Source of the DNA: Phycisphaerae bacterium
GTDB lineage: Bacteria > Planctomycetota > Phycisphaerae > Phycisphaerales > SM1A02
Assembly: GCA_002683195.1 (NCBI GenBank)
Contig: NYSW01000059.1
Location: 30,767-78,616, forward strand
Direction: 5' to 3'
Length of the DNA: 47,850 nucleotides
A model generated the notes under the pieces. That model searched no databases. It saw nothing but the letters and a program-made list of their open reading frames with translations, and was not told where the DNA came from. This document shows positions 4,785-40,373 of this stretch, one piece after another. A program made the translations under genes and the position numbers. Numbering within the stretch: the stretch's first letter is position 1; each line of letters begins with the position of its first letter.

Positions 4785-7700
4785 TCAAGGCGTATCCGGA
4801 GGGCAGGAAGCGCCCCAGGAAAGGAAGAAGATTCCAAAGTCCGCACCATCGACCACCGCGTCACCGTTGAGGTCACCAAGGCACGGTTCGTCGGGCGAAC
4901 CTGACTGACACGGTCCCCAACTCACGAACAGAATCCCCAGATCGGCGCCGTCGATCAATTCGTCTCCGTTGAAATCCGCATCACAGTTGGCCGAAAGGCA
5001 ATCATCGGGAACGCCATCACCATCCAGGTCGGTGGAGTTGCCGAGAAAGATATCGACCGAGTCATCGATGCCGTTCTCATTGCAGTCCGTGAAGGGACGA
5101 ATGAACAACGCGTAGACCACGCCGGAAAGGATTCCGGCGTCATCCGCATCCGGCGCGCCCGCAAAGAGCTGGCTTCCGACGATCGCCACCGAGCCGCCGA
5201 ACTCGTCACCCGCACGAAGATCCTGGGGCGAACCGATGAACTCGATCGCGGACCAGTCGTCGTCGTCGATCAGGCCGAAGACCGCCACCGCACCGACGTT
5301 CTCGAGCAGGACCTCATCCGGATCGACGGGGCTCATGCGATCACGCCCCGGAATACCGACCGCGATCCTGGTTCCGCTGCAGGCGACCGAGGCGCCGAAG
5401 TTGTCTCCGAGCTCGAGTCCGGGGGTTGCCAGAACCTCCACTTGGACCAGCTCGTCGGCTACAAATCGATACGCGCCGGCCGCGCCCAACGTGCCACGAG
5501 CCAGTGGAGCGCCGATCACGGCCTTGTCCTCGTAGATGGCCAGGGCCGCGCCGAACCGACCGCCGGAGTAGATGCCGTTCACCACGGGACCCGCTGACAC
5601 CACGAAGACGTCTTCACTCCGGAAGAACGCATACGGGGCCACCGAACCGAGTTCACCGCCACTGAATGGAGCACCGACCAGCAACCCCTGGGCAAGACTG
5701 TCTGGAAGCACCGACAAGGCCAGCGTCGAGCCGAATCGATCGCCTGCCTCGACTCCTTCGAAGATTTCAAGGAGTTCGAAAGTCGTAGTCGAAGTCCGCT
5801 GATACACGTAGACCATGCCCGAATCGATCTCTCCGGTCGCCGTCTCCTGGAGCGGAGCTCCGACCGCCACCAGATCGCCGGCCACTGCGACCGCGGAACC
5901 GAAGAAGTCATTGCCCAGAAGCGTGTCCGGTTGCAGGACCTGAACCCGGCAATAACCTCCACCCTGATTCACCCAGATCTCCGCCCGACCTGCGAGCGGG
6001 ATCGTCTCGACCACCTCTTCCTCGCCTTCGTCGTTGATCTCGGTCACGATTCTCGGTGAATACGGCGCCCCGATGACCAGCATGTCCTCCCACGCCGACA
6101 CGCTTTCTCCGAAGCGATCGCCCTCCTCGAGGTCGGAGGGTGAGAATTTGGCGTCCTGGAACCAACCGACATCGGGGACGTCGTCGACGGCATCGACGAA
6201 TCCGTAGACCGCGCCCGCATTCTCTCCGAGGGCATCGTGCCGGCTCGCACCGGTGAACATCCGGACTCCGTCGGTGGTGATCGAACCTCCGAAACCATCG
6301 AACGCACCGAGGCTCGACGCCACGAGACGTCCGGAGGTCGTGACCTGCTCGGGGACCTCGCAGAAATACGCGACGGTGCCGGGCATCGTCTGGCGGATGA
6401 CGCTGGCGTTGTCCGCCCATCGATTACCCGGATCATCTTCCGGACTGCCGGTCGCGACTCCGGCCAGTTGAACCTCGGGGTTGGAGTAGTTCAAGGAGAC
6501 GGCTCCCGGTCCGTACGCCATCAGCGTGCGACGACAAGCGGGGAACTGGACTTCATTGATCCATCGCCACCCATGGTTCCAACTCGGTGCTTCGGAGGCC
6601 GGGCCGGTTTCATCCGGGCGACAGCATTCGAAGACCGTTGGTTCCCAGGGCACGCAATCCGTCGGCTCTCCGCAGCCCCCTCCATCACCGGCCGCATGGC
6701 AGCACCCGATGTTGTGGCCGAATTCATGGGCCAGCAGCGTGTATCCCATACAGCCCCAGAGCAGATTGTTGAAGGCCGACCCCGGGGAATCACCGGTCCC
6801 GAGATAGGCGACACCGCAATAACCGCCACCCCCGCTGGAGTTGGTGATCAGGGAGCAGGCGTCGGCTCCGACGTCGGCGCGAATGAGGTGGATTTCGTCC
6901 ATCACGCCGTCATCAACGCCCGCGAACAGACTCAGGATCTCGCCACTGTCCTCGTTCTCCCAGTCAACGGGGGCGACCAGAACGGCTCGGACCCCGAACG
7001 CGAGATCGGAGTTCTCCATCGCCTGCGTGGTGTTGGCGCACTCCAGGACGCACTTCGTGGCGATCACCAATGGTGCGTCATCGGGATCCTCCCCTTCCCC
7101 GATCAGTGCCGCCTCGACTTCAGCGAGAACCGGTGGGGTGTAGAAGAATGCGAGGTCGGCGATGCTGGCGGCACAGCTCGCGCACTCGAGTTCGTCCTCG
7201 TCACCGAATCGGGCCAGGTTCTCCGCGGGGGCCTCGGGCGGCTGAGGCCCGAAGATTCCGGCATCGCGAACCGTTTCGACGTCGGGGCCGTCGGGCATGG
7301 TCAACGTACCGCCGCAACCCGGCATGTCCGATGCCTTGGCCGTCGGACGCATCCGACCTCGGCCCATCGGCTCGAGCGTCCATTCAAACGCATCGCCGAA
7401 CGCCGGTGACTGCAACCAACCCGCAAACATGTCGCCGCGGCTGGCCAGGGTTCCGACGCCATCGGCGTGATCCAGAGAAACGAGCCGCCACCAGCGGTCC
7501 TGCCCTCGCTCCCGTCGAGCATCCAGAATCTCGTACCGTTCGGTGACCCCGATTCCGGTTCCGATCGCGATCACGTCGCCGACCGTCAGATTCCGGGCCA
7601 GTGTGGGATTGAAGCGGATGTCGCCGTCCGAGGCCGGTACCAACGAGAGCGCCAGCGGTTCCGTCACCGGGACCACCGCCGCGGGTGCCGGCGTGGGTGC

Positions 7701-7883
7701 AGCCGTGGATGCTGGCCGCGCGGTACGCACGGCCGACGTCTTCACCGCGGGTGCCTCCCGGACGTTCGTACCACGCTTCGGGGGCGCGGGCTCGGTGGCG
7801 ACCGCGAAGCTCGCACCCACGGCCGTGACCAGCCCCAGAGTGACCACTGCGAGCTGACGAAGCGAATTGAGGCTGCTCTTCAT
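4785..7883 (-). CDS. Secreted zinc metalloprotease with FG-GAP repeats and dockerin pair
   Basis: A 1032-residue exoprotein. It has a signal peptide (about 1-28), a Pro/Ala-rich linker and a propeptide-like region. A reprolysin-type (M12-like) metzincin domain carries the zinc site HEFGHNIGCCH (about 386-396) and a downstream LMAY Met-turn followed by NYSNPEV and GVATG, typical of this family. About seven FG-GAP repeats follow, each with a FGxxVA...GAP signature (for example GDRFGESVS, NDFFGSAVA and GDEFGGSVA), predicting an integrin-alpha-like beta-propeller. The C-terminus holds two dockerin-like EF-hand segments (DFNGDELIDGADLGI and DLNGDAVVDGADFGI), each ending in SWG. Start: ATG 7883 with GGAGA upstream. 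It lies directly downstream of the secretion operon terminator, so it could be a substrate of that machine (inference). It is probably a cell-surface or secreted protease. Confidence 0.88.
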   Translation of the reverse strand: MKSSLNSLRQLAVVTLGLVTAVGASFAVATEPAPPKRGTNVREAPAVKTSAVRTARPASTAAPTPAPAAVVPVTEPLALSLVPASDGDIRFNPTLARNLTVGDVIAIGTGIGVTERYEILDARRERGQDRWWRLVSLDHADGVGTLASRGDMFAGWLQSPAFGDAFEWTLEPMGRGRMRPTAKASDMPGCGGTLTMPDGPDVETVRDAGIFGPQPPEAPAENLARFGDEDELECASCAASIADLAFFYTPPVLAEVEAALIGEGEDPDDAPLVIATKCVLECANTTQAMENSDLAFGVRAVLVAPVDWENEDSGEILSLFAGVDDGVMDEIHLIRADVGADACSLITNSSGGGGYCGVAYLGTGDSPGSAFNNLLWGCMGYTLLAHEFGHNIGCCHAAGDGGGCGEPTDCVPWEPTVFECCRPDETGPASEAPSWNHGWRWINEVQFPACRRTLMAYGPGAVSLNYSNPEVQLAGVATGSPEDDPGNRWADNASVIRQTMPGTVAYFCEVPEQVTTSGRLVASSLGAFDGFGGSITTDGVRMFTGASRHDALGENAGAVYGFVDAVDDVPDVGWFQDAKFSPSDLEEGDRFGESVSAWEDMLVIGAPYSPRIVTEINDEGEEEVVETIPLAGRAEIWVNQGGGYCRVQVLQPDTLLGNDFFGSAVAVAGDLVAVGAPLQETATGEIDSGMVYVYQRTSTTTFELLEIFEGVEAGDRFGSTLALSVLPDSLAQGLLVGAPFSGGELGSVAPYAFFRSEDVFVVSAGPVVNGIYSGGRFGAALAIYEDKAVIGAPLARGTLGAAGAYRFVADELVQVEVLATPGLELGDNFGASVACSGTRIAVGIPGRDRMSPVDPDEVLLENVGAVAVFGLIDDDDWSAIEFIGSPQDLRAGDEFGGSVAIVGSQLFAGAPDADDAGILSGVVYALFIRPFTDCNENGIDDSVDIFLGNSTDLDGDGVPDDCLSANCDADFNGDELIDGADLGILFVSWGPCQSGSPDEPCLGDLNGDAVVDGADFGIFFLSWGASCPPDTP

Positions 7884-8365: not shown

Positions 8366-11300
8366 TCAGTTGGGGAGTTTGCTGAAAAGCTTGATCTCCG
8401 GCTCATCACCGGGTCGGTCACACCTGGACCGGTCGACCACCATCAGATATCTCGAATCATCGACGATGAACGCCGGATCCGTGGCGTTCCACACGCCACT
8501 CACCGGATTCTGCTTGAACGACCGAATCTTCAGATGAACGCTGAAGGTGTCGCTTCGAACCGAGACGAGATTCGAAATGCCGGCAAACAGCATGTTGACT
8601 TCCTCGGCATCACCCGCCACCACATCAGGCAGTTCCTGGACTTGGGGTGTGCCGGGGTCACCTTCTTCGTACATCGTCCATTGAACCGGCTGGCGGTCCA
8701 CCGAGAGCCGTGCATCCAGCTGCAGCCCTTCGGACCAGCCAAGGCGAAGTAGATCGAAGGCGGCGGGAACCCCCGCCTGTCCGACGTTGAATTCACCATC
8801 GAACGTCTCGAGTCCGAGTTGCCCACTCAGGGATCCGAAGTTTCCGGCCGCCGCACTGATGCCCGAAGAAGCTCCGAGCCAGGTATCTCGCACTTGATCA
8901 TTAACTGGGTTTCCGCCGCGGTCCACCAGCAGCAACTCCCCGATCGACTCGATCCCACTGGTTCTTCTCATCCCGGGGAAGTACCCGACGTTGCCATTCA
9001 GCTCGGGATACTGCGGTACCCAGTCCGCCATGGATTGAGATGCGTTGCCCTCGGAAAACGTCCCTCGATCGAGGAAGAACGGCAGGAACCATCGGTCATC
9101 CGCTTGGGTGATTTCAGGCGTCGTGAACTCGTTGAGTCGAGTCGCCCACGTCGCCCCGTCCCGATAGCGAGCGATCGACTCGGGAACTCGAATGAAGTTC
9201 GAATTGCGATTGGCAGTGGTTTTCGGCAGCATTCGTCCGTTGGCGAGCGATGAATTCACGTCACCCTTGGTGATCCCATTCGCCCGCACCGTCCGGGTCC
9301 AGAGCTCAGCGGTGTTGAACTCATCGTAGAAATCATTGATCACCAGTCGACTCATATGCGGGAGCGTCCGCATCACTTCCGGGCTCGCCGTGTTGAGATT
9401 GATCAGACCCGGGGTGCCCTGACCGGAGAAGCCGGCGGCATTCCCGAAACGCTGATCCTTCTCGTACAGGACGTCGGCGGGGTCCACGGCGTCATTGAAC
9501 ACATCGAGGCGATAATTCGAACCCGGCCCGTCACAGACCAGACCATCGAGGAATCCGAGTCCCGCGGGCAGCTTTGGTGTCCACGGCGCCCCGACCGCGG
9601 CAACCTCCAGGACCTGCGTATTCGGGCGGAAGGCGTTGACCGCACCATTGACCGGATCCGTCAGAGCCCCGGGGTCCGCCCGGTACCGATTGATCCGGGC
9701 GTTTCGAACTTCGGGGTATCCCTTGGTGTCGTTCTCGTCATTCAACCGCACGGGGAAGAGATCGTCCGACCGGTTGGAAGCCATGATTTCCGAGAACGTA
9801 CTCACCGTCTCGAAACCTCGAATCGAAAGGATCTGATCCTGCACTCCGTTGACCGCGTGACCCCAGATGAAGGCATTCAGGACCTCGCCCACCTGCTCGA
9901 TATCGTCGTCCTTCTGGAGCATCTGCAACGGCATCGCCCAGCATTCGCGCTCCAGCCAGATTCGGTCGTAATTTTCGGCCCCCTGGTTTCCACGACTTCC
10001 GTTCGCGAGTTCCTCGGGCTTCTGACCTTTGTCCATCAATATCCAGTTCTGAACCAGTGCCGCTGGACGGCCGGGCCAGGGAGCGAGTGAATTCTCTCGG
10101 AATCCCCCGTCATTCACGACCGGGAAGCCAGCGTCGTAGTCGACCGACACGGGCTGGACTCCGGGAGTTCCGATCACCGCCGTGGCGGTGCTCAGATTGA
10201 CCGGCTTGCCGCGGATCACGAAGAAGTCCGCCACGAATGGTCCAGCCGCCGCATTGAAGTTCAAGGCCAGGGGCGAAAGATAGTTCCGGACGATCCAAGG
10301 TCGACCTCCGGGACTGTTCCCATCCGGATCGTCGCTCCAGAGAATCGCGCGGCCCTTGACTTCCCGTTCCACCCCGGATTCTTCCAACGCGGTCTCCGAG
10401 TTCTGGCTGAAGTCGTCGCCGGGCAGGATCGAGTAGACGAATCGCGGATTGTTCTCCGACATGTCGTAGATGCCATTGCGATTCGCATCCCAGCCCCACG
10501 CTCGCGCGGCCCGGACGTAATTGACGAAGGCATCGTCGGACGCCAGACGAATTCCGGCCCACTTGTTTCGGCCGGGATTCAAACGCTCGAAGACGAATCC
10601 GGGCTCGGGCGGCTGGAAGTCCGGCGATTCGCCGAGTGCTTCCATGTCATCCTTGAAATCGATTTCATCGCCCGTCTGATCATTATCGAGTCGATCGATG
10701 CAGTACAGACGTCCTTCGTTCTGGAAGGGTGCGACGTTGGGGTCGTAGGTGTTCGGATTCAGCGTGTACCGGTAGAGCTCCACCGATTGATCGAGATTCG
10801 TGAACCAGTCGTCCGCATCAAGGTTGAGCAACGGCTGGATGGGCGGCGTGAATTCGTCGCCCGTCTCGGGAGAGGTCAGGATGTACGTCTTGGGTGACGC
10901 GTCCACCACGATCGTCTCGTGCCTGAATGGCTCGAGACTGGGATCCCAGCCGAACAGGGCGCCGGGCTCGATATCGAGGAAGTCCCGCCACTTGGCATGG
11001 AACTCCGAGTACGGGATGCCGAACTCCGATTCGAATTCACTTCCGAGGTCGTCGATCTCCGCGGGAGGAATCACCCCGAAGACGATCGCGGTTCGCGGCG
11101 CGTCGGGCTTCGTAGGGCCCAGGTACAACTCGTCGGGGGTGTAGAACGGGAACGATCGACCGTCCGCCTTGATCCGAGGATGCGGAGACGGAAGCTTTCC
11201 AAAGTTGAGGGTCCGTGTGATGGTCTCGTTGTTGGTCGAACCCTCCCGACCGGTCTCCCCGATGCGGATGAAGATGTCGTGCAACGGCACCGGCGCGTCG

Positions 11301-14300
11301 AAGGGATTCGCCAGTTGCACCGCGAAGATGACGGCCGGCTTCTTCCGACGGTCCACCCAGTGTTCGCCACTCCCATCGAATCCCGGCGGGATCTTCGATC
11401 GCCAGGTGTCGGAATCGAACTGCGGAGCGGGCAGGTTGTTCGTCTCGCAGAACTGTTCGTATCCATCGTCCTTGAGCTTGTCGACATCTTCATCGGTCAT
11501 CTTCCCTCGGGGATAGACCATCGAGAAGTACGACTCCATGATGAACGGTTGCTTCTCAAGCCCGGGAAAGACCAGATTCCGGAGATCGTTCGGCATGCCG
11601 GCGTTGTCTTGCGGCGACAGACGCGGCGCGAATTCCGGATAGATGGGGGCATCCACCAGGATCGTCCCCTCCGCCGGCGTGCCGGCGGTGTAATCGTGGG
11701 CGATGACCGGTCGCAGCCGACGATCCCGCATCGAATCGATGTTGGCCGCCCAACTTGCTGCCGCCAGTTTGGACTTCTGATACGCCAGAAGATTGAACGG
11801 TTCGTTCTGGAAGTTCGAGCCGAAGTAGCTCTGGTGATACCGATCGGTTCCAGCATCGGTGAACCCCGCCATCGACTGGTCGAGCAGATCCTGAAGCGAC
11901 CATCGGAAGCGGAAAGCCCGATCCAACTCAAGCGTCCGGCCGAGTCCCGGGCCCAGCGTCTCCGGTGAGTAATACTCCCCAAGGCCAAGGCCACCGATTC
12001 GAAACGGCCCGCGGAAGAATGCATCGTTCGGATCGTTGGAATCACCCGCATAGAGCCGAGTTTCATAATCCGTCACGCGAGCATCGAGCGCTCCGCGGAG
12101 GTCCAGCTTTCGGCGCGACGCCTCGTAGTCCGCCCGAGCCATCTCCAACTTGATGTCAAACGGCGCCGCGGAGTCGGCGAGTCGTCCGAACGCAAGGCGG
12201 GGAAGGAATGGATTGAAGTACGGGCTCGGGGTCAGGGACAGCGGCCGAAGATCATTCCGGGTTCCCGAGATCGTGGTCGATCGGTGCCGGACATCGCGAA
12301 GAAGCTCGCTGGCATCGAGTTGATCGCCGGATCTGGGGTCACCGTTGATGAGTCCGTAGGTTGGTCCTACGAACGGATTCTTCCGTCCCGGAGGGGTCCC
12401 TTCTCGCCAGTCGTCGATGTCGTCGCGGTCTTCCACGCCGAGATAATTCTCGACCGACTCGGATCGCTGCAACGTCGATCGGAAGATGTTGGTACCCAGC
12501 GAAAACGGTCGATTGATCGTGCGTTCGAGCGAACTCACGACGGGCCCGTAGTTGGAGGCCTCGAACATCCTCAATTCCAGTTCGTCCGCCGAGGCGAACC
12601 CCCTGGTAGGTGCCAGTCCGACCGCCAAGGAATCATCGTTCGGGTTTCCAGCGTTGCCGAAATCAATCCGGGCGAAGAAACCGCCTCCATCCTGACGGCG
12701 GTTGAAGTATCGAACTCGATCAGCGCGGGCCTGACTCCGAGTGCTGATACCCGGGGCCGCGACCAGGACGGATTGGAATGGAGCCTCGAAGTTCGCTTCT
12801 TCGAGGGCGAGTACACCGGTCTGCCGGAGCCAGGTCGGGGAGTTGATGTCGCTGCTGCCGGTATCGCCGAAGAGCCTCGGATCCCAACCGGTCTGCACCC
12901 CACTCGTGTCGAGCCTGCCGTAGCGAAAGGGAAAGAACGTCTCGCCTTGGAGGTAGTCGAAGTTCCAATTCGATGCGTGGCCGGTGAGATCACCATGCGA
13001 ACTGGTCGGGATGGCGGGCCAGATGTTCTGGGGGTCCGCAAACAGTCCGACCATCGTGTCGTTCTCATCCATCTCTGGATTGAGCGACCCGGACCCGATC
13101 TCCCCGGGGAGTACGAGTCGACTCGCGAGCGCGACGTCCGCCGGCGTGTGCCCCGCGGTGCTCCATCGATCGAAGCGGGTCGCGGTCTGAAGGTCGACTC
13201 GGGATCCGTTGTCGACCACGGAAACGCCGACCACCTGCCGCACGCCATCCTCACTGGTCCCTGGAACCACGAACCAGAACGAGTCGGTGAAGCCGTCACC
13301 ATCGGTATCGGTCAAGGTTCGCTCGATCTCGGCCCGCGGTGGCCTGACGTTCAGGGCCAGCTGTGAAAAAGCATCTTGCCGCGGACCGTAGTCGTTCAGC
13401 CGAAGGAAGTTCGGGAGTGCCTGTTGCGGATTCGTCAACGCCCTGAAATAGTCGGCCGGGGGACTGAACCAGGCGTTTCTTCGCTCGCTGAATTCCTCTG
13501 CGGTGTCGAAACCAGCGGGGATCAGGAATGGCAGCCACTGCTCGTAGGGTGTCTGCAGGGCCACTGGAACCCCGAGGTCCAGATAGTCCTGCCCCGGGCC
13601 GAGCTGAGTCGACGCCGTGGCGGTGATGGTGTTCGCATCGATGTCGGAGATGTCGGGGCAAACTCGCCAGCCGTTCTCTGCGCTCGCGGGCCAGGAGAGG
13701 TGACGCCAGTGGGTGAACCCAGTGGCCACACCGCCGTCGTACCGACGTTCCGGCTCGGACGAGCGAAGCCAACGAGAATCACCGAATCCCGGGTTACCGA
13801 TTGGATTGTCGTCTCCGGGCAGAAGCCCGCCGGCCGGAGCCCCCGCACCGAAGGGGAAGGCGATCTGGATGTCGTTCAGTCCGGAATCCGGCCAGTTCGT
13901 CCACGCCCGAGTGGCGTAAGGCGCGTGGTTGTACGGAAAGAACGGTCTAAAAACCCCATTGGCATCCACCTGACCCTGCGGGTCGACTCCGTAGCGGGCG
14001 ATGTCAACCGGAATCTGATCCGGACTCCCATTCCCGTCGAGATCGATCCCGTAGTTGATCGACCACTCATTGACTTGAAGCCGGGGGCCGGCGGAACTCG
14101 CGACACCCGACAGGGAGTTCAGCCCCGGATCGGACTGGTCGACCAGGGCGGGAAAAAGCCCCTTGGCGATGTCGCGTGAAATGACGCCCGCCACCAGATG
14201 AGATCGATCCTCCCGGTCGACCGCCTTCCGCTGGGCGGCGGCGATGACCCGGCCCCCCTGGGCGCGAGAGATGTACGCGGTGGCGATGATCACCAGCAGC

Positions 14301-14383
14301 ACCAGAATCGCGGTCACGAGGACCAGCGTGTTTCCACGGGCCTGCCTGGCCTGACGTCGGTAGTGGTTTCGGACTCGACTCAT
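8366..14383 (-). CDS. Giant GspK-like minor pseudopilin (2005 aa)
   Basis: The ATG at 14383 overlaps the upstream gene's stop as ATGA. A longer in-frame start at 14509 would put 42 unrelated residues before the pilin leader. Residues 1-15 are basic, then RG|NTLVLV starts a hydrophobic helix (about 18-38) ending in ISRAQGG. Like GspK, it lacks the Glu at position 5 of mature pilins. Near residue 1660 comes GLINLNTASPEVMRTLP, the helix-hairpin-helix element of GspK, and near 1940 SNLVSVRSDTFSVHLKIRS, like the end of GspK proteins. GspK is usually about 300-350 residues; here about 1600 residues of Asp/Pro/Asn-rich sequence separate leader and GspK core. It is the last gene of the pseudopilin run. 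GspK caps the pseudopilus tip with I and J. I expect a tip adhesin or tip scaffold, but the insert itself is unrecognised. Confidence 0.8.
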   Translation of the reverse strand: MSRVRNHYRRQARQARGNTLVLVTAILVLLVIIATAYISRAQGGRVIAAAQRKAVDREDRSHLVAGVISRDIAKGLFPALVDQSDPGLNSLSGVASSAGPRLQVNEWSINYGIDLDGNGSPDQIPVDIARYGVDPQGQVDANGVFRPFFPYNHAPYATRAWTNWPDSGLNDIQIAFPFGAGAPAGGLLPGDDNPIGNPGFGDSRWLRSSEPERRYDGGVATGFTHWRHLSWPASAENGWRVCPDISDIDANTITATASTQLGPGQDYLDLGVPVALQTPYEQWLPFLIPAGFDTAEEFSERRNAWFSPPADYFRALTNPQQALPNFLRLNDYGPRQDAFSQLALNVRPPRAEIERTLTDTDGDGFTDSFWFVVPGTSEDGVRQVVGVSVVDNGSRVDLQTATRFDRWSTAGHTPADVALASRLVLPGEIGSGSLNPEMDENDTMVGLFADPQNIWPAIPTSSHGDLTGHASNWNFDYLQGETFFPFRYGRLDTSGVQTGWDPRLFGDTGSSDINSPTWLRQTGVLALEEANFEAPFQSVLVAAPGISTRSQARADRVRYFNRRQDGGGFFARIDFGNAGNPNDDSLAVGLAPTRGFASADELELRMFEASNYGPVVSSLERTINRPFSLGTNIFRSTLQRSESVENYLGVEDRDDIDDWREGTPPGRKNPFVGPTYGLINGDPRSGDQLDASELLRDVRHRSTTISGTRNDLRPLSLTPSPYFNPFLPRLAFGRLADSAAPFDIKLEMARADYEASRRKLDLRGALDARVTDYETRLYAGDSNDPNDAFFRGPFRIGGLGLGEYYSPETLGPGLGRTLELDRAFRFRWSLQDLLDQSMAGFTDAGTDRYHQSYFGSNFQNEPFNLLAYQKSKLAAASWAANIDSMRDRRLRPVIAHDYTAGTPAEGTILVDAPIYPEFAPRLSPQDNAGMPNDLRNLVFPGLEKQPFIMESYFSMVYPRGKMTDEDVDKLKDDGYEQFCETNNLPAPQFDSDTWRSKIPPGFDGSGEHWVDRRKKPAVIFAVQLANPFDAPVPLHDIFIRIGETGREGSTNNETITRTLNFGKLPSPHPRIKADGRSFPFYTPDELYLGPTKPDAPRTAIVFGVIPPAEIDDLGSEFESEFGIPYSEFHAKWRDFLDIEPGALFGWDPSLEPFRHETIVVDASPKTYILTSPETGDEFTPPIQPLLNLDADDWFTNLDQSVELYRYTLNPNTYDPNVAPFQNEGRLYCIDRLDNDQTGDEIDFKDDMEALGESPDFQPPEPGFVFERLNPGRNKWAGIRLASDDAFVNYVRAARAWGWDANRNGIYDMSENNPRFVYSILPGDDFSQNSETALEESGVEREVKGRAILWSDDPDGNSPGGRPWIVRNYLSPLALNFNAAAGPFVADFFVIRGKPVNLSTATAVIGTPGVQPVSVDYDAGFPVVNDGGFRENSLAPWPGRPAALVQNWILMDKGQKPEELANGSRGNQGAENYDRIWLERECWAMPLQMLQKDDDIEQVGEVLNAFIWGHAVNGVQDQILSIRGFETVSTFSEIMASNRSDDLFPVRLNDENDTKGYPEVRNARINRYRADPGALTDPVNGAVNAFRPNTQVLEVAAVGAPWTPKLPAGLGFLDGLVCDGPGSNYRLDVFNDAVDPADVLYEKDQRFGNAAGFSGQGTPGLINLNTASPEVMRTLPHMSRLVINDFYDEFNTAELWTRTVRANGITKGDVNSSLANGRMLPKTTANRNSNFIRVPESIARYRDGATWATRLNEFTTPEITQADDRWFLPFFLDRGTFSEGNASQSMADWVPQYPELNGNVGYFPGMRRTSGIESIGELLLVDRGGNPVNDQVRDTWLGASSGISAAAGNFGSLSGQLGLETFDGEFNVGQAGVPAAFDLLRLGWSEGLQLDARLSVDRQPVQWTMYEEGDPGTPQVQELPDVVAGDAEEVNMLFAGISNLVSVRSDTFSVHLKIRSFKQNPVSGVWNATDPAFIVDDSRYLMVVDRSRCDRPGDEPEIKLFSKLPN

Positions 14384-16074
14384 GACGCATCCTCCGGAAG
14401 ATCCTGCACCCGTCGCGGCAGTGGAATCGTGAACTGAATGGTCCGCCCACCTTCGATCGCACCCTTGGAATCGTGAATCGTGGCGGTGATTCGCACGGCC
14501 GACGGCCACGGGGTGTAATCCCCGCGGAGGATCGGCCAGGAACCGTTGTTGTTGGCCAGCACGATCGGTCGACCGTCCGATTCGCGAACGAACGGCCGAT
14601 CACCGTTGAGGCCGAAGTAGGCGTGGTAACGACGAATCTTGTTGGATCCATATCCGTCGACGTAGTCGCCGCTGCCTTCGATGCACTGCGCGATCCGAGG
14701 GAGCATGGTCATGAGCGGCTCGAGACCGGAAGTGTTTGCTGGAAGATTGGGAGGTCCGCCCTGGAAGATGTTCCCGTCGTCGTAACTCAGAGGCGGGTGC
14801 AGGCGATCGGGCCGGCTCAGATCAAAGGCTCGACCGACGCCTCGAGACGAATTCCCGGTGTCCAGTCCGAACCACGGCGTGAGTGCATCCACGTCACTGA
14901 TCGGCCCATTCGTTTCGCGGCCCACCGCCGGACGGTCTCCACCTCGGGTCGAGAAACCTCGCATCGTGCCCTGGATTCCGGTCGCCGGATCGATGTCGAG
15001 TTCACGCCCGGTGCCATCGGCCCAGGTCCAGTCGATCGAGAAGGAAGAGCAGTTCCCCAGCAGGGTGTTCGCGGTGAGGAGCGCGTCCTCCCGCGTCAAG
15101 GACGCTGGCCGCTTCTCGGTTCGTGGTCGATAGTTGAAGAGAAGATTCGCGAGCCTCGAACCGGCTTGGGCCGGATCCAACCCGAGCTCGCGGATGAAGT
15201 CTCGAAACTGCGACGCGTCGGTGGAAACCACGTCGACCCTCGAATCTCGAGCCGACGAGTCCAGGAATCGTATGTTCCCGTTTTCTTCGACTTCCAGACG
15301 CCTTGCCGCATTCGGGGCCATCGTGTTCGGATTCGAAAGGTAATGCCCGGTGTTGTCATCCCCGTCATCGGCCATCAAGAGTTCCTGCCGCCCCATCGCC
15401 CACTGCGCAGGGGCCGGTTGCTCCACGTTGACCCCACCGGCCGAGTTCCCGCTGGGCCAGCGAACCAGATCAGCCTGAGTTCCAAAGGCAGGCCGCCACC
15501 AGGGCTGCAGATAGATCCCGTTACCCGCCACGGGCTGGACCACGTCAAGCGGATCCGGCGAGACCGGGGCGTAGGGCAGTTGGAATCCGTGACCGTAGTA
15601 GATGATCGACCCGGTCGACTGCGGGGTCGGCGCCTCGCCACTGTAAAGACCGCTGGCCGTTTCGACGTACGAGCTCATTCCGCGAGTCTGCCGGCTGATC
15701 GTCAGATCCTCGGAGAGAAACATCATCTGATCGCAGCGGAACCAGTGATCGCTCGCGAACGTGGGATCGAGCAGACGCTCCGGGGCTCCGAAGTCCGACA
15801 TGACATCGTTGCGAACCGCGACGCACTGAACCAGCATCACGCCCTCGCCGGAGATCTGATCGAGATCCGAGCGGACCAACCCTTCGAGGGCGGCCGCCTC
15901 CTGGAGAATCGACGCATTCCCCTCTCCGTTGGCGACCACGGTGCTGGCGGTACCGAAGATCCGGCCGACCGCGAGGATGATGACCAGCAGCACGACGACC
16001 GCCACCATCAGCTCCGTGAGCGTGAAACCCTCGATGCTTCGACCGAAATACGATTGTTCGTGACGCCTCTTCAA
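14380..16074 (-). CDS. GspJ-like pseudopilin, oversized (564 aa)
   Basis: The type III leader ends in EG|FTLTELMVAVVVLLVII (cleavage at about residues 17-18, Glu5 present), followed by one hydrophobic helix. After the helix comes LQEAAALEGLVRSDLDQI. The RxDLDxI pattern is characteristic of PulJ/GspJ proteins. The usual GspJ is about 200 residues; this one is 564, with a large extracytoplasmic domain rich in Gly, Asn and Asp. The start lies 2 nt after the upstream stop and the stop overlaps the next start (ATGA), which indicates translational coupling. It is predicted to be inserted in the inner membrane, processed by a prepilin peptidase not in this window, and incorporated at the filament tip. 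Confidence 0.8.
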   Translation of the reverse strand: MKRRHEQSYFGRSIEGFTLTELMVAVVVLLVIILAVGRIFGTASTVVANGEGNASILQEAAALEGLVRSDLDQISGEGVMLVQCVAVRNDVMSDFGAPERLLDPTFASDHWFRCDQMMFLSEDLTISRQTRGMSSYVETASGLYSGEAPTPQSTGSIIYYGHGFQLPYAPVSPDPLDVVQPVAGNGIYLQPWWRPAFGTQADLVRWPSGNSAGGVNVEQPAPAQWAMGRQELLMADDGDDNTGHYLSNPNTMAPNAARRLEVEENGNIRFLDSSARDSRVDVVSTDASQFRDFIRELGLDPAQAGSRLANLLFNYRPRTEKRPASLTREDALLTANTLLGNCSSFSIDWTWADGTGRELDIDPATGIQGTMRGFSTRGGDRPAVGRETNGPISDVDALTPWFGLDTGNSSRGVGRAFDLSRPDRLHPPLSYDDGNIFQGGPPNLPANTSGLEPLMTMLPRIAQCIEGSGDYVDGYGSNKIRRYHAYFGLNGDRPFVRESDGRPIVLANNNGSWPILRGDYTPWPSAVRITATIHDSKGAIEGGRTIQFTIPLPRRVQDLPEDAS

Positions 16075-16076
16075 AG

Positions 16077-17384
16077 TCAGATCTCCCTCACGGTGACGTA
16101 CACGGGTTCAAGACTCACGCCACGACGGTCCGCGGGTGGAACAAACCAGATCGACCGAACTTCCGAGGCCTTCTCCACCCAGTCGTCCTGGCCGACGACC
16201 AGACTGGGACTCACGATCGACGAAGAGGCTCCTTGAGTGGGGATCGGACGGGCCAGGCGAACCGGTCCTTGGGAACCGGTTCGTCGTCCCTGCACCACTC
16301 GATGGATTCGACCACTCGGATCGAGAAGCCATTGGCCCGGCGACTGCCAACCGTCCCAGACCGGGTCGAGAACCACATCGCTGTCCGCCAACGATGGCCT
16401 GGTGCCCGGTACGAACGCCGGTCCGTATTCCGCGTCGCCTTGGGGCGTTAGCGGTTCGTAGCCCCCGAGGGCACCACGCAGGGGGAGGTCCAATCGAGCC
16501 GGCAATGGCGGGTTGGTGAAATTGAAACCCGATCCGGTGGCGCGATACGTCTCGCCACCACTTCCGATGACCCGGTAGACGAAGATGGCGACCTGCACCC
16601 GACCCTGGAACCGACGGAACATGCAGTCCCAGACGTACTGCGGTTTCGCGGGGAACTGATCCGGACCTCCTTGGACGGCGGCGACCGTTTCGAAACCGGT
16701 TCCCGCCGGCCAGCAGCGTTCTTCCTGAGTGATCGTGATGCGGGGTTCCACTTCGGATTCGGCGAATCCAAACCGCCGACGATTGAACGGGATGCCGTAC
16801 AGAAACGCACCGGCATCAGAGCCCAGCTGGGGACCCGCAAGCGGATTCCCGTCCACCACGAATTCCGTGGTGGTCGACGATGACGGCCAGTCGTTCGAGC
16901 CGCTTCCTGGATTGCTGCTGGATGATCGGACGTACCTTGACGAGAAGACATCGATGTCCCCGTAGGACGTCTGAACGACCGCCGGCAACGGCGGCCCGGT
17001 CGCAGGGAAGACGCACATGGAGGGACGAAGCCATGGCCAGTCGCCGAACTGGGTGGAGGCATCAAGCAGATCGAGATTGCGAAGCGTCGGACTGATACCG
17101 GAATCGGTCCACTCCTGCACCTGCGGCTGAAACACTCCGAACTCCTCGAAGGAACCGAAATCATCCTGCGACACTTTCGAGCGAAGGATCGAGAGTGCCG
17201 ACTCGGCCACCACCGGGCCCAGAACATCATCCTGAGCCCGTCGTTGCTGAATGATGCCGGCGGGGAACACGGCAGCGACAGATATCACGCCCACGCCGAG
17301 GATGAAGATCGCCAGCAGCAATTCAATCAGCGAAAAGCCGCGTGCCGCCCGTCTCGTTCCTTGGTTCGAATGCGTCCTGATCAT
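16077..17384 (-). CDS. GspI/PilV-like pseudopilin, oversized (435 aa)
   Basis: The leader is basic (TRRAARG) with cleavage predicted before FSLIELLLAIFILGVGVISVAAVFPAG. The pattern FSLIE...ILGVG is the usual GspI/PilV signature. A GspI is normally near 120-130 residues. Here the mature part continues for about 400 residues with no recognised domain, several Trp/Pro-rich stretches and paired Cys. It overlaps the upstream gene by ATGA (17381-17384). The role is inferred from family: the I subunit starts the I-J-K tip complex of type II secretion pseudopili. Assignment to I rather than another minor pilin is supported mostly by the N-terminus and gene order. Confidence 0.78.
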   Translation of the reverse strand: MIRTHSNQGTRRAARGFSLIELLLAIFILGVGVISVAAVFPAGIIQQRRAQDDVLGPVVAESALSILRSKVSQDDFGSFEEFGVFQPQVQEWTDSGISPTLRNLDLLDASTQFGDWPWLRPSMCVFPATGPPLPAVVQTSYGDIDVFSSRYVRSSSSNPGSGSNDWPSSSTTTEFVVDGNPLAGPQLGSDAGAFLYGIPFNRRRFGFAESEVEPRITITQEERCWPAGTGFETVAAVQGGPDQFPAKPQYVWDCMFRRFQGRVQVAIFVYRVIGSGGETYRATGSGFNFTNPPLPARLDLPLRGALGGYEPLTPQGDAEYGPAFVPGTRPSLADSDVVLDPVWDGWQSPGQWLLDPSGRIHRVVQGRRTGSQGPVRLARPIPTQGASSSIVSPSLVVGQDDWVEKASEVRSIWFVPPADRRGVSLEPVYVTVREI

Positions 17385-18313
17385 GGTCTCGATACCTCTG
17401 CCACACCGGTGTAGCGGTTGAAGAAGATTGGTACGCCTGCACTTTCGACCCAGTTCGTCACGTCACTGATCCGTCGCTCGTCCTGCGCGGTGACCTGCCC
17501 CCCGGAAGGGGCATTTCCGCTCGCCGGAACCCAATTGGCTGGATTCCTCGCTTCGCGGAGTGCCTCGTCATCGAAGACCGCGAGCCACTGGACCGGATGG
17601 AGGTCGACCTCGTCCCCCACCGCGTCGTAGACGACATACTGGTAGGAGCCGCTGTAATTGTTTCCAACGCCAACGATGTTCGCGACCCCGTCACGATTGA
17701 AGTCGATGAAGGGCCAGACCGTGGAGCCACTCCCTCCCGCGCCTCGGACATTTCGAGTGATGAGGGTCCCATCCGAACTGAACATCACGCCGATCATCCG
17801 GCCTGGTTCGCGGGTGTAGATCCTGCCCGCCTCCAGTTGCCATTCGCCCCCGGGCTGCGTCGCCCAAAGACCGTCTTCTCCCGGGGCGTCGTCCGCATAG
17901 GCGACGGCACTCAACGGCCCGGCGACCTTGATGCCCCGCGGTAGTTCCGCGAACGAGAAACCGGGGACCGGGGAATAGCGTTCTTCGAAGAGGTAGTTGT
18001 CGTCGAAGATCGGGTACATCTCCCCCGTCGACTCGGCGAGCACCATTTCAACCCGTTCCCCTTCGGAAACCGCGGCCTCATCGACCTTCACCACGAACGC
18101 GAGAAGCACCGTGACGTTGTTCTGAATCGCATAGGCCCTCGCCCCACCGAGGGCGGCGACCACTTGGTTGACTCCGGAACTCAGTCGGGCTTCCTTGCTG
18201 ATCTGGCTCACGCTGATGCCGGTGAGAACCGCCAGGAGAACGAGAATCCCCATCACCACGAGGAGCTCGATCAACGTGAACCCACGCCGGATGTAGGGTG
18301 CGACATTCCGCAT
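17381..18313 (-). CDS. GspH-like pseudopilin (310 aa)
   Basis: A clear prepilin: RRG|FTLIELLVVMGILVLLAVLTGISVSQI, with Glu5. It is followed by a SGVNQVVAALGGARAYAIQNN helix, the pattern of GspH/FimT-type pseudopilins (residues selected for 'ARxxAIxxN'). It is 310 residues against about 150-190 for typical GspH. The extra length lies in the C-terminal globular domain. The start overlaps the preceding stop (TGATG at 18311-18315) and its own stop overlaps the next start (ATGA). It is predicted to be a minor subunit of the filament, with one membrane helix before assembly. Confidence 0.82.
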   Translation of the reverse strand: MRNVAPYIRRGFTLIELLVVMGILVLLAVLTGISVSQISKEARLSSGVNQVVAALGGARAYAIQNNVTVLLAFVVKVDEAAVSEGERVEMVLAESTGEMYPIFDDNYLFEERYSPVPGFSFAELPRGIKVAGPLSAVAYADDAPGEDGLWATQPGGEWQLEAGRIYTREPGRMIGVMFSSDGTLITRNVRGAGGSGSTVWPFIDFNRDGVANIVGVGNNYSGSYQYVVYDAVGDEVDLHPVQWLAVFDDEALREARNPANWVPASGNAPSGGQVTAQDERRISDVTNWVESAGVPIFFNRYTGVAEVSRP

Positions 18314-19185
18314 CAGGAATCTCCCGGCTTGTAGGAGTAGACGTTGTCCAGAGCCGCTTCCCGCCGGCTACCGGACTCGCAGTAACGCTGGCCCAGCAGG
18401 CCATCCGGCCCCGCACTCACGAACAGGATGTTCCCGTTGCGGCAGACTCCGACCATGTTCTCCATCGCGGTCCGAATCGTGCCATCTTGATCCGGTATCC
18501 GGAAAGAGGCCCCGTCGGCATCCGACTCACGCCAGGCTCGACCCGGGAAAACCACCGCCACCGTGGCTCCCCAGGGATCCACCAGCTTGGTGAGCGGGGG
18601 AAGTGGATTGCCTTCGGAGTCAAGCGAGGTCACTTCGTCGTACTTGACTCGCTGAAGGAGCGACGGGTCGAGACGAGCGATGATGTCTTCCGCGGACTGC
18701 GTCCGTTGCAGGAGATTGAACAAGGCCACGGTCTGCTTTTCCCAGCCCCGCGGGTCTCCCGATGCGTCACAGGCAGTCGTGTTCGTGTTGATCCCCTGAT
18801 TGAAATACGCGATGGTGCCACCCTCGCGAAAATAATTGCCGGGGGTGTTTTCCAGATTCCGATAGCCGAGGCCGACGAAATCAGAATTGTGGGGGATGTC
18901 CCAGTTTCCGGGATCATTCAGGCTGCCACCTGGAACCGATTCACGCTGAGCTCGAGAGGCGATCGGACGACCGACCGCTTGCTCGTACTCCTGGACCGCA
19001 CTGGACAGGTTGGCGAACGCGGACTGCAACTGCCTTGCCTCATTCTGCTGGATGAGCAGCGTGCTCACCGCGAGCACCAGCGAGAGCAGCGCGATGATGA
19101 TCCCGATCACCACTACCAGTTCGACCAGGGTGAACCCACGGCCCCCGTCACGGACGCGACGCCGAAGAATGCTCTGATGCCTCAT
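18313..19185 (-). CDS. GspG-like pseudopilin (290 aa)
   Basis: The prepilin leader ends GRG|FTLVELVVVIGIIIALLSLVLAV with Glu5. The first mature helix continues as NEARQLQSAFANLSSAVQEYEQAVGR, as in major pseudopilins of the GspG class, where a long amphipathic helix packs in the fibre core. It is roughly twice the length of a classical GspG (about 140-150). The start overlaps the upstream stop as ATGA. It could be the main shaft subunit or a minor pilin. Two GspG-like genes in a row make it hard to say which is major. Confidence 0.78.
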   Translation of the reverse strand: MRHQSILRRRVRDGGRGFTLVELVVVIGIIIALLSLVLAVSTLLIQQNEARQLQSAFANLSSAVQEYEQAVGRPIASRAQRESVPGGSLNDPGNWDIPHNSDFVGLGYRNLENTPGNYFREGGTIAYFNQGINTNTTACDASGDPRGWEKQTVALFNLLQRTQSAEDIIARLDPSLLQRVKYDEVTSLDSEGNPLPPLTKLVDPWGATVAVVFPGRAWRESDADGASFRIPDQDGTIRTAMENMVGVCRNGNILFVSAGPDGLLGQRYCESGSRREAALDNVYSYKPGDS

Positions 19186-20228
19186 GGTCCGATCTCCACG
19201 ATGTTGTCACGATTGAATTCATCGACGTCGACCCGGTCTTCGAGATTCACCCGACGATCCGGGCCATGACTCATCAGAGCGAACTCGCCGGCCTTCAACT
19301 GGGGTGAGGTCGCGGTGTCGCCGGAAGCGTCGCCAATACCGTCCGTCTGCACGCCTTCCTCGAACGCCCAGGGCCGCAGCGCGAACACATCGTCGAGACC
19401 GAGCCCCGAAGCCACGCCTGCTTTCGGATCACCCCCGAGATAGGGGTTCCGGTAGTAGCGGATCGGCGTTCCCCAGTAGTCCAGGATCACCTTGGGACGA
19501 AATGCGTAGTCGTCGTCCTCGGGCAGGGCCACGGTGCCGTCGGGCCGCAGGCCACCGAGAAGATTTTCATCCTTGAGTTCCAGGTACGGGCCGTAGATCC
19601 GCCCCCTGATCAGCGTGGAATTCGAGATCGGAGGGCCGCCCTGCCGCTTGGCATTCCCAGGATTCCGGGCAGAGAATGTTCCGGGTGGGAAGTTCGATTG
19701 ATTGTTGAAGAGGGCGCCCCAGACCCCATCAGCGCCAGGTGCCCGAAACCCGATCGTCGGACTTTCGATCCAGCCCGGATCAGTATCTGCCGCCGAGTCG
19801 AATCCACCGATGATTCCGTATCCATCCGCGACGCGGTCGCCGTATCCGGTGAGATACTCGGCGGGCGAGGTCACGGAGAACCACCGCTGTCGACCGTCGA
19901 CCTCCGCTCCCGAAGGATCGTTGCTCCAATTCGGCGCGAGGATCAGATCTCGCGACCATCCGGGAAGGTTCTCCGGCGTGCCCACGCCCCCGAAGAGCGA
20001 GCCGTCGCCGAGCACCGGGGGCAGGTAGCCGTGATCCCCCTTGAACTGCGCGAGGCCGGCGGCCATCGAATTCAGCAGGAACCTGGTCTGGGCCTTCTGG
20101 GCCGTTCCCGCCGCCTGACTGAGGCCCACCACCAGAATCCCCACCAGGAGGATGATGATCGCGAGCACCACCAGGAGCTCCACCACCGTGAAGGCGTGTC
20201 GATCCGAAACTCGTCGTGAGACGGCCAT
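19182..20228 (-). CDS. GspG-like prepilin with Ala at the cleavage site (348 aa)
   Basis: The ATG at 20228 follows GGAGG at 8 nt. An earlier in-frame start would add 26 residues lying over a hairpin. The leader reads MAVSRRVSDRHA|FTVVELLVVLAIIILLVG, so the residue before the predicted peptidase cut is Ala, not the usual Gly. Glu5 is present. After the helix, QFKGDHGYLPPVLGDG resembles the conserved Tyr-Pro turn of GspG proteins. The protein is 348 residues, well over the 140-150 of typical GspG. It is the first pseudopilin gene and lies just past a perfect stem-loop that separates it from gspF. It is a candidate major shaft subunit. Confidence 0.78.
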   Translation of the reverse strand: MAVSRRVSDRHAFTVVELLVVLAIIILLVGILVVGLSQAAGTAQKAQTRFLLNSMAAGLAQFKGDHGYLPPVLGDGSLFGGVGTPENLPGWSRDLILAPNWSNDPSGAEVDGRQRWFSVTSPAEYLTGYGDRVADGYGIIGGFDSAADTDPGWIESPTIGFRAPGADGVWGALFNNQSNFPPGTFSARNPGNAKRQGGPPISNSTLIRGRIYGPYLELKDENLLGGLRPDGTVALPEDDDYAFRPKVILDYWGTPIRYYRNPYLGGDPKAGVASGLGLDDVFALRPWAFEEGVQTDGIGDASGDTATSPQLKAGEFALMSHGPDRRVNLEDRVDVDEFNRDNIVEIGP

Positions 20229-20253: not shown

Positions 20254-20299
20254 CCGTCCCTCCGACTCGCAGTCGGAGGGACGGCACGGTGACGCCGTG
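20254..20299 (-). promoter_or_regulatory. Perfect intercistronic stem-loops upstream of pseudopilin genes
   Basis: A perfect 14-bp stem (20254-20267 with 20271-20284) closes on a CGC triloop. Immediately beside it is a second 5-bp hairpin (CACGG/CCGTG, 20285-20299). They fill the 74 nt between gspF and the first pseudopilin gene. No T run follows, so I favour mRNA processing/stabilisation or partial termination over a full terminator. Confidence 0.7.
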
Positions 20300-20302
20300 A
20301 AA

Positions 20303-21607
20303 TCACTGTCCCGAGACGGACTCGATCATCTTGACGAGCGGCAGGAAGAGAGCGAGAACGATCGCTCCGACGATGCCACCGAGAATCACCACCATGAAGG
20401 GTTCCAGCAGCGACAGCAACGAAGCGACCGCCACATCGACCTCTTCGTCGTAGTTGTCCGCGATCTTCATCAGCATGATGTCGAGATCGCCGGTCTCTTC
20501 GCCCACGTCGATCATGTTCACCACGATCGGATCGCAGACCTTCGCCTCGCGAAGCGGACCCGCGAAGGTCTCGCCGTCACGAATCGAATCATGGACGCTG
20601 CCGAGCGCCTTTTCGTAGATGTAGTTGCCCGAAGTGTCGCGGGTGATCAGGATCGCCTCGAGAATCGGGACGCCGGCACTGATCAGGGTGCCGAGGGTCC
20701 GGGTGAATCTCGCGATCGCGGTCTTCCGTATCAACCCGCCAAGCACCGGCAACCTCGCGAACACCACGTCGGTCGCCGCCTTGCCCGGTCCGGTGATGCG
20801 TATCAACTTGTACACGCCGAACAGCAGGAACGGCGCCAGCAGGATCCAGATCGCCCCCGGTACCGATTGATCCGGAGAGGAGTTCCCCGCGACCCACTTG
20901 GAGGCGTCGACCAACCAGAGCGTGAGGCCCGGAAGTTCGACGTCGAAGTCGTTGAAGATCTCCTGGAACTTCGGAATCACGAAGTACATGATGCCGGTCA
21001 CGATCAGCACCGCGATCGAGATCACCACCACGGGATAGATCAACGCACCCTTGATGCGCCGCTTGAGCCGCTCACCCTTCTCCATGAAGTCCGCGAGCCG
21101 CTGAAGGATGATGTCGAGGACACCACCAACCTCGCCCGCCGCCACCATCTTGGAGTAGAGCCGGTCGAACCCCTTGGGGTGCTTCGCCATCGCATCAGAG
21201 AGAGACGACCCCGACTCGACGTCCTCGCAGACGTCGTTCAGGATGTTCTTCAACTTGCCCGGTCGCTGCTGCTGCTCGAGGATCTGGAGCGATCGGAGCA
21301 GCGGAAGTCCGGCGTCCTGGAGGGTCGAAAGCTGACGGGTGAACGTCGTCATGGTCTTCGTGTTGACCTTGCCGATGCTCAGCGAGAAGCCTCGCCCCTT
21401 CTTCTTGGCCGCCTTGGGCGACTTCCCCTCCTTGGTGGCCTTGGCCTGCTTGGCGGCCCGGCCCTTCACCTTGAGCTCCTCGACGGAGGTCGGGAAATAC
21501 CCCTGGCCTTTCAGCTGCCCCTGGGCGTCATCGCGGCTTGAAGCCTCGATGGTGCCTTTCTGCTGCTTTCCGGCGGCGTTGACTGCTTCGTACTCGAAGG
21601 TCGGCAT
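20303..21607 (-). CDS. gspF: Type II secretion/type IV pilus inner-membrane platform protein
   Basis: A 434-residue GspF/PilC family protein. It has an N-terminal YEAVNAAGKQQKGTIEA domain, then TRQLSTLQDAGLPLLRSLQIL (the first T2SSF domain), a membrane helix (PVVVISIAVLIVTGIMYFVI), a second T2SSF domain beginning RFTRTLGTLISAGVPILEAI, and a final helix. MIDVGEETGDLDIML is a hallmark near the C-terminus. It sits in the inner membrane and couples the cytoplasmic ATPases to pilin insertion. Residues about 47-75 form a Lys/Ala-rich linker (KAAKKKGRG and similar) not found in compact family members. Only one F gene serves the two assembly-type ATPases in the cluster. The start ATG 21607 lies 55 nt after the upstream stop. 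Whether to call it GspF or PilC is open, because the cluster mixes both themes. Confidence 0.93.
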   Translation of the reverse strand: MPTFEYEAVNAAGKQQKGTIEASSRDDAQGQLKGQGYFPTSVEELKVKGRAAKQAKATKEGKSPKAAKKKGRGFSLSIGKVNTKTMTTFTRQLSTLQDAGLPLLRSLQILEQQQRPGKLKNILNDVCEDVESGSSLSDAMAKHPKGFDRLYSKMVAAGEVGGVLDIILQRLADFMEKGERLKRRIKGALIYPVVVISIAVLIVTGIMYFVIPKFQEIFNDFDVELPGLTLWLVDASKWVAGNSSPDQSVPGAIWILLAPFLLFGVYKLIRITGPGKAATDVVFARLPVLGGLIRKTAIARFTRTLGTLISAGVPILEAILITRDTSGNYIYEKALGSVHDSIRDGETFAGPLREAKVCDPIVVNMIDVGEETGDLDIMLMKIADNYDEEVDVAVASLLSLLEPFMVVILGGIVGAIVLALFLPLVKMIESVSGQ

Positions 21608-21662
21608 GACGTGTTCCTGGTCTTACTGGCGGATCGCCCACGCGGGCGACTCGGCGTGTGGA

Positions 21663-40372: not shown

Positions 40373-40373
40373 G

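Follow-up and report, generated by a model that had tools for sequence, protein, structure and literature searches.

Background

Minor pilins are usually small, and in our view the tip complex that they form is one of the most poorly understood components of type IV filaments. The nearest studied parallel to the protein described here would be ComZ of Thermus, which the cited passages describe as a GspK-like pilin of the filament tip that contains an inserted domain and binds DNA (PMC6561018). Other modular pilins bind proteins or glycans, and the multi-domain extreme named in the cited part of a modular-pilin survey has 860 residues (PMC8179133). Here we analyzed a run of six prepilin genes located on a stretch of 47,850 nucleotides from a Phycisphaerae bacterium (contig NYSW01000059.1, positions 30,767 to 78,616; referred to as the window), the last of which, K, encodes a protein of giant size. 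We consider it rather probable that this locus specifies a retractable filament resembling a type IV pilus, with a greatly enlarged priming and tip complex composed of the proteins H, I, J and K.

Pili-like fibres which bind dextran have been described in other planctomycete genera, in the cited passages without genes (PMC5394234). In a Synechococcus co-culture, the proteome of a Phycisphaera bin was reported to be rich in type IV pilus proteins, the type of pilus being unspecified in the section cited (PMC7029141), so that such proteins may be detectable. According to the cited part of a further report, a pseudopilin was among the genes over-expressed on alginate in a verrucomicrobial isolate (PMC13274419).

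Results

Composition of the prepilin gene run

The six genes are located on the minus strand and are named here A, B, H, I, J and K in the direction of transcription. A (19182..20228, ATG at 20228; 348 aa, 336 mature) and B (18313..19185; 290 aa, 273 mature) encode GspG-like prepilins. They are followed by the GspH-like H (17381..18313; 310 aa, 299 mature), the GspI/PilV-like I (16077..17384; 435 aa, 419 mature), the GspJ-like J with a TTG start (14380..16074; 564 aa, 548 mature) and the giant GspK-like K (8366..14383; 2005 aa, 1988 mature). Overlaps of 4 nt (A/B), 1 nt (B/H), 4 nt (H/I) and 4 nt (J/K) and a gap of 2 nt (I/J) connect the genes. The coordinates, the lengths of 290 to 2005 aa and the four overlaps with one 2-nt gap which the original prediction had given were all confirmed. 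Classical (pseudo)pilins are shorter than all six proteins, and H, I, J and K have about two to six times the usual size.

A matched TIGR01710 below the cut-off (3.7e-5), and the matches of B to ComGE, GspH and GspG models were restricted to the N-terminus. For H, matches to TIGR02596 (1.1e-8) and TIGR01708 (5.5e-7) were found, both below cut-off. All 21 scanned members of the I family matched PilV, and 7 of 21 members of the J family matched gspJ. The C-terminus of A is conserved with the motifs DYWG..PIRYYR, S.GPDR and DNIVE, while DPWG..VFPGR, FVSAGPDG and DNIYS are conserved in B. Judged by these motifs, both proteins appear to keep what we take to be the GspG-like C-terminal pattern.

Ordinary type III leaders followed by a hydrophobic helix had been assumed for all six proteins. 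This holds for five of them, where [G/A]-F-[T/S]-x-x-E, including Glu5, precedes a single hydrophobic helix; in A the residue preceding the cleavage site is Ala. The leader of K reads G-NTLVLVTAILVLLVIIATAYISR and lacks Glu5, as does that of GspK. The N_methyl model (cut-off 21.2 bits) scored above cut-off in H and I and below it in A (17.7 bits), B (13.7 bits) and J (20.6 bits), and TIGR02532 exceeded its cut-off in H, I and J. From this topology, the extra mass of the proteins would lie wholly outside the cytoplasm.

Machine genes and conservation of the operon

Four genes which had not been considered before precede the prepilin run on the same strand (20303-26906). These encode PilB1, a PilB/GspE-like extension ATPase with an MshEN domain (24996..26906; 636 aa; PF00437 6.7e-127, PF05157), a PilT-like retraction ATPase (23784..24908; 374 aa), PilB2, a second PilB/GspE-like ATPase with MshEN (21663..23612; 649 aa; PF00437 1.6e-138), and a PilC/GspF-like platform protein (20303..21607; 434 aa; T2SSF, PF00482, 5e-65). 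PF00437 and PF00482 scored well above cut-off in the PilB- and PilC-like proteins, though the curated PilB and PilC models remained below theirs. PilB1 reached 564 bits with TIGR02538 (cut-off 675.65) and 539 bits with TIGR02533 (630.25), PilB2 reached 614 and 592 bits, respectively, both below cut-off, and PilC reached 380 and 348 bits with PilC models (700) and 379 bits with GspF (424). The PilT-like protein exceeded the cut-off of TIGR01420 (450.4 versus 319.1 bits), and the unit therefore looks more like a retractable machine of the type IV pilus kind than like an exporter. The protein-export role that the original prediction had considered is weakened by this gene, whereas a defined set of prepilins that share large domains, probably forming a tip complex, was upheld.

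A contig scan for K led to 127 confirmed relatives, 80 of which were kept as loci and fetched. Taxonomy was taken from the record titles, and those of the 80 loci read Phycisphaerae, Phycisphaerales, other planctomycete names or uncultured bacterium; a few, e.g. Kuenenia or Singulisphaera, are probably no more than rough labels of bins. The order PilC-A-B-H-I-J-K (by stop coordinate) was present in all 46 loci reaching PilC. A, B, H, I and J were all found in 45 of these; in the remaining locus, L017, J had no separate call and is located in one frame with K (2237 fused). PilT and PilB2 were also present in 31 of the 46 loci, PilT adjoining PilB2/PilC, while PilB1 was mostly outside the fetched flank (fragments in 4).

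The mature lengths varied within narrow ranges, with 309-454 residues for A (47 loci), 211-308 for B (47), 272-336 for H (56), 330-496 for I (61) and 445-722 for J (69, the fused frame of L017 excepted). Relatives thus share both the gene order and the length profile, and the conserved order and alignable proteins support a defined set with large domains in a GspG-G-H-I-J-K-like order, as had been proposed. In one genome titled Phycisphaerae bacterium (G002, the genome of locus L003) two copies of the large operon were found. The second (L103, G002:C13:28000-47900) is a diverged PilB1-PilT-PilB2-PilC-A-B-H-I-J-K operon with the length profile of L003 and a K frame of 2591 aa.

The gene order resembles that of type II secretion, and we considered a secretion-like pseudopilus which expels folded enzymes, the metallopeptidase with FG-GAP repeats encoded downstream of K being its substrate. 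Homology of K to GspK (see below) is in line with this, and the metallopeptidase gene directly follows K in 10 of 41 eligible loci, including 9 of the 12 closest. However, it was not counted beside K in the other 31 (in L011 it is present, split over two frames), and the operon contains PilT. No secretin was found in the window, and no GspC, GspL, GspM or GspD among its scanned open reading frames (ORFs); the large operons of relatives hold PilB1, PilT, PilB2 and PilC where type II secretion systems (T2SS) have GspC/L/M/D. Moreover, in a relative that carries the large operon, short pseudopilins are encoded at a separate T2SS-like locus along with GspE, GspF and a secretin, and this locus also has a T2SSK match. 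A secretion function of the operon appears quite unlikely to us.

Conservation of K and its relation to GspK

Of 7987 candidates scored, 236 proteins matched K at E ≤ 0.001. The matches listed (120, on which the figures for length and helix are based) ranged from 1442 to 2878 aa and were called hypothetical proteins wherever a name was visible. The N-terminal hydrophobic helix without Glu5 (residues 16-42, 14258..14338) is strongly conserved in those listed relatives that contain it. In an alignment of 48 giant sequences K was conserved along its whole length, with variable insertions between the blocks and 101 invariant columns. Only two windows of low entropy (2.98 and 2.99 bits, threshold 3.0) were found in K; these borderline values and the conservation across 48 sequences led us to reject an origin from low complexity or an annotation artefact. 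Narrow lengths and full-length alignment likewise show that the long domains are not freely varying low-complexity sequence, an outcome that would have spoken against the original prediction.

A K profile built from nine sequences (A3) was applied to 150 genomes of the class of G002 and to a phylum sample of 149 genomes. Matches (E ≤ 1e-5) were present in 75 of the class genomes and 11 of the phylum-sample genomes; these numbers and the 127 confirmed relatives also exclude K as an oddity of one metagenome-assembled genome. Long matches (E ≤ 1e-114) were found in 5 of the 150 class genomes, and most others were short matches to no more than three collinear blocks (the helix, the DxDxDG block and the C-terminus). 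Several class loci carried a K of only ~840-1000 aa, here referred to as small K, together with J and I of ~210-390 aa. PilB1, PilT, PilB2 and PilC were located upstream of the prepilin run in 16 of 20 further class loci fetched. Two of the others had PilB2 and PilC only (L160, L174), and two had none of the four within the stretch taken (L168, L170). In the class loci L162 and L163 no K was found by the scan.

Profile alignment of giant K with small K (74 sequences) gave 99.3% for residues 1658-2005, 98.3% for residues 347-706 and 62% for the helix. Small K in turn aligned to a GspK profile of 22 planctomycete sequences, drawn from 30 fetched loci, with 98.3% (E 2e-14) over the NTA/HhH motif and the C-terminal strands, and with 86% in the N-terminal region. 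This chain from giant K (99.3%) through small K (98.3%) to GspK identifies K, on sequence grounds, as a GspK-type tip subunit carrying very large insertions. Models run on single giant members were weak, with matches to Pfam T2SSK in 1 of 24 and to NCBIfam GspK in 3 of 24, the window K being in neither. The giant-K profile gave no match in the PDB. For small K the sole PDB match, a CBM3 chain with E 0.02, was treated as chance.

Two elements at the C-terminal end follow from the profile alignments: a GspK/HhH-type (helix-hairpin-helix) motif, PGLINLNTASPEVMRTLP (residues 1658-1680, 9344..9412), and the C-terminal block NLVSVRSDTFSVH...MVVDRS (residues 1919-2005, 8369..8629), the latter common to small K and, via small K, to GspK. 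Residues 359-367 (DTDGDGFTD, 13283..13309) form a DxDxDGxxD loop, a predicted calcium site. D359, D361-G364 and D367 are invariant in the 48 giant sequences, and the loop is invariant in these and in the 74 small K, where the block reads DADGDGIADS. A strand at residues 1018-1042 (11258..11332) tentatively resembles a lamin-tail domain (LTD). The mid region aligned with 58%, the LTD segment alone with under 5%, and LTD was found in two small K among nine K proteins scanned (3.5e-6 and 9.1e-6, under cut-off; these two had been selected for scanning on account of an earlier lamin-tail flag).

Some of these features could belong to a DNA-uptake pilus, with K as a DNA-binding tip like ComZ, for which there is precedent in the passages cited (PMC6561018), and PilT-driven retraction bringing DNA to ComEC. 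Among 120 small K listed, PF12836 (HHH_3) was precomputed in 28, a lamin-tail match was present in 2 and the name 'DNA uptake protein ComE-like DNA-binding protein' in 2; PF12836 was also above cut-off in P0197 (5.2e-7), one of nine K scanned. ComEC (PF03772) was detected in 15 of 16 genomes of relatives, but also in 10 of 14 control genomes, and its presence therefore says little. The HhH-type motif is a general feature of GspK. A DNA-binding HhH hairpin is expected to read LPGIG; the giant K rows displayed have LPHMSRL or LPQMSRL and most of the small K rows LPWVS or LPWVA, so that the DNA-binding hairpin looks absent. The window pilins are furthermore poor in lysine (0.7-2.0%). We regard a role in competence as unlikely. 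Because K has no glycine-rich hairpin of the DNA-binding type in the rows displayed, we weakly prefer capture of a polymer or surface over DNA as its putative function.

Length variation and divergence of the pilins

For the comparison of lengths 102 sources were used, 74 of which had a K and 60 a complete K. The complete K proteins ranged from 836 to 2460 mature residues with a median of ~1754. Fifty of these 60, including the window, had at least three pilins upstream, whose identity was assigned by position, counting back from K. The sum of H, I, J and K rises from ~1,600 residues in small-K loci (e.g. L158) to over 3,200 in the window. Between small and giant loci, J and I were compared and their profiles aligned along the length with 99.7% and 99.4%, respectively. 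Probably the clade of the window enlarged an older operon; alternatively, the small-K loci may have arisen by shrinkage.

In the 50 loci the length of K correlated with those of J, I and H (Spearman 0.73, 0.81 and 0.63). Independent contrasts on a tree of PilC and PilB2 from 43 loci, with loci lacking PilC and a long PilB2 left out, gave 0.61, 0.79 and 0.55 (sign-flip p 0.0085, 0.0042 and 0.0040). For A the contrast with K was 0.48 (p 0.02), and the controls PilC and PilB2 gave 0.19 (p 0.26) and -0.24 (p 0.91).

Divergence from the window was compared in the 26 loci in which all 8 genes aligned over 60%, other loci being left out. Identity tended to drop from A to K in all 26, and the pilins diverged more than the machine genes. 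Mean identities were 74% for PilC, 44% for A, 33% for B, 36% for H, 38% for I and 31% for K. Such a gradient is the pattern expected if outward parts evolve fastest. Together with the co-scaling it fits, without proving, a single physical complex with K outermost.

Scaling of the pilins tested (A, H, I and J) with K and the fast divergence of the later genes could also be expected of giant subunits that are mainly structural, i.e. an elongated cap or brush that passes a thick envelope or matrix and has no specific ligand. However, the 101 invariant columns of K, including the DxDxDGxxD loop, suggest a specific function, and we consider a purely structural role very unlikely.

Further pilus and secretion gene sets

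Classical short pseudopilins encoded elsewhere and used instead would also have argued against the original prediction. Short sets, which might be used instead, do exist in the relative G002, the one genome read in detail, with mature proteins of 113/132/182/273 aa and 124/176/329 aa and two more partial sets. The first two adjoin their own PilB/GspE, PilC/GspF and secretin (the latter by coordinates), and a T2SSK match is located near small-set loci, again by coordinates. As these sets have an ATPase and a platform of their own, the large operon is an additional machine in G002.

Secretins were present in all 16 genomes of relatives and PilN in 13. An unlinked PilM-PilN-PilO-ATPase cluster and a TPR-secretin were found in relatives and are candidate partners only. 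In 11 of the 16 genomes secretin domains were located in frames of 2431-5086 aa (e.g. G002:C12:240185, G015:C23:487493). In G002 such a secretin has pilins in its vicinity and a PilC/GspF gene at a distance of ~23 kb, and it is perhaps part of a giant secretin system of its own.

Neighbouring elements

Between pilC and A a perfect RNA hairpin of 14 bp without a T run was found on the minus strand (20254..20284; gap -44.0 kcal/mol). A 13-bp stem was reached in none of 2000 mononucleotide shuffles. Four of 40 relatives (L009, L011, L013, L022) have stems of 11-13 bp with different sequences at this position, the others having 8 bp or less. The hairpin could be an element of mRNA processing or stability. 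A sigma-70 promoter scan returned 1 site versus 2.7 expected.

Directly downstream of K, on the same strand, a reprolysin-like metallopeptidase with FG-GAP repeats is encoded (4785..7883; HExxHxxGxxH at residue 386), which we do not claim as part of the machine. A role as cargo or partner of the pilus is possible. By eye, its C-terminus is dockerin-like. A C-type lectin-like domain is present in a 635-aa protein encoded further away on the minus strand (38440-40347), and the two adjoining ORFs (40344-40874 and 40871-41599) gave no Pfam matches.

Discussion

Proposed function of the operon

In the mechanism that we propose, PilB1 and PilB2 with PilC would extend the filament, whose shaft would be formed by the GspG-like A and/or B, and PilT would retract it. 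H, I, J and K (~3,250 mature residues, ~360 kDa at 110 Da per residue) would prime the assembly and remain at the end of the filament as a receptor head with K outermost. This head would bind an extracellular macromolecule or a surface, most likely a polysaccharide or a particle surface, and retraction would draw the target to the cell. Capture of extracellular polymers is our best guess for the target.

Several observations weigh against this interpretation. No secretin or PilM/N/O was found among the window ORFs scanned with Pfam, and PilM, PilN, PilO and three secretins of relatives matched no window ORF (E ≤ 1e-3, PilC as positive control). The scores of the PilB-like proteins do not set PilB clearly apart from GspE. 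The window K has no recognised domain in scans with Pfam and NCBIfam models, its direct match to GspK is modest (89.5%, 31 columns for giant K), and the narrower nine-sequence profile A3 ties giant to small K at the C-terminus only; the fold of K and its position at the tip are predictions from sequence. Within the 36 loci with a K over 1300 aa the correlations for J, I and H fall to 0.43, 0.60 and 0.30 (p 0.06, 0.056 and 0.11), so that co-scaling in this subset is only suggestive. The raw length of PilC also correlates weakly with K (0.33, p 0.03), and the divergence gradient is uneven, B (33%) lying under H (36%) and I (38%).

A retractable filament with an enlarged tip would make the operon a concrete candidate for the planctomycete fibres, which lack named genes in the cited passages (PMC5394234). 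The graded series of K proteins (~840 to over 2,400 residues) in one conserved operon allows us to ask what the head binds, how a large head is fitted to a pilus and how it passes the outer membrane. As a tentative and rather unlikely generalization, the type IV filaments of many bacteria of one class might bear a giant heteromeric receptor head and serve to reel in macromolecules, the head growing as a unit over evolution. This might perhaps extend, through the gene cassettes discussed below, to other phyla of the Planctomycetes-Verrucomicrobia-Chlamydiae (PVC) group, and might be the basis of the dextran-binding fibres and of the macromolecule uptake that have been reported for planctomycetes.

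Comparison with known systems

Members of the K, I, J and H families weakly match the NCBIfam Verru_Chthon cassette proteins A, B, C and D (TIGR02600, TIGR02598, TIGR02599 and TIGR02596), respectively. Matches were found for K to A in 14 of 24 members (E ≤ 0.1, best 2.4e-5), for I to B in 9 of 21 (best 5.4e-5) and for J to C in 15 of 21 (best 6.7e-4). In the window, H matched D (1.1e-8) and J matched C (0.0056), and I and K matched none. Verru_Chthon A is giant like K, with a profile of 1296 positions, and in three of the five K proteins that were scanned one by one its match was collinear at the C-terminus; two other K members and the window K had no match to it. None of the scores seen reached the curated cut-offs (H 35.4 of 70 bits, J 16 of 256.5 and three K members 16.5-18.6 of 332.3), and the matches for which positions were given covered short stretches. 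The I family matched PilV (21/21) more strongly than Verru_Chthon B (9/21). A further difference is the link of the window set to PilB1-PilT-PilB2-PilC and to a pair of GspG-like pilins.

TIGR02600 matches occurred in 51 of the 149 phylum-sample genomes, none above cut-off, in frames of 89-2113 aa, mostly above 1000, and the matches listed all lay at the first ~80 model positions. In 18 stretches around such matches no PilB or PilT was found, and a PilC-like ORF in one only (L153). Other pilins were present in some of the stretches, and seven had no row at all. A search by the cassette name in the literature library used returned no paper on it. We infer that the Verru_Chthon cassette may represent an H-I-J-K set of this kind in other bacteria of the PVC group, which would suggest a testable function for these families.

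With GspH-I-J-K of the T2SS the window shares the order, the leader types, the NTA/HhH motif and the C-terminal strands of K; it differs by PilT and two PilB-like ATPases and by the components C, L, M and D, which were not seen in the window. The type IVa pilus is similar in PilT, which scored above its cut-off, in PilB- and PilC-like proteins, which scored below theirs, and in prepilins, whereas PilM/N/O and a secretin were not found in the window and the operon has no short major pilin. ComZ of Thermus thermophilus, CofB and the streptococcal PilB/PilC resemble K in that a pilin domain is combined with a large additional domain and a position at the tip has been proposed, as far as described in the passages cited (PMC6561018, PMC8179133). 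In contrast to these modular pilins, four minor and two G-like pilins are large together in the window, and K has 2005 residues, with up to 2878 among the relatives listed, compared with the 860 named in the cited part of the modular-pilin survey (PMC8179133).

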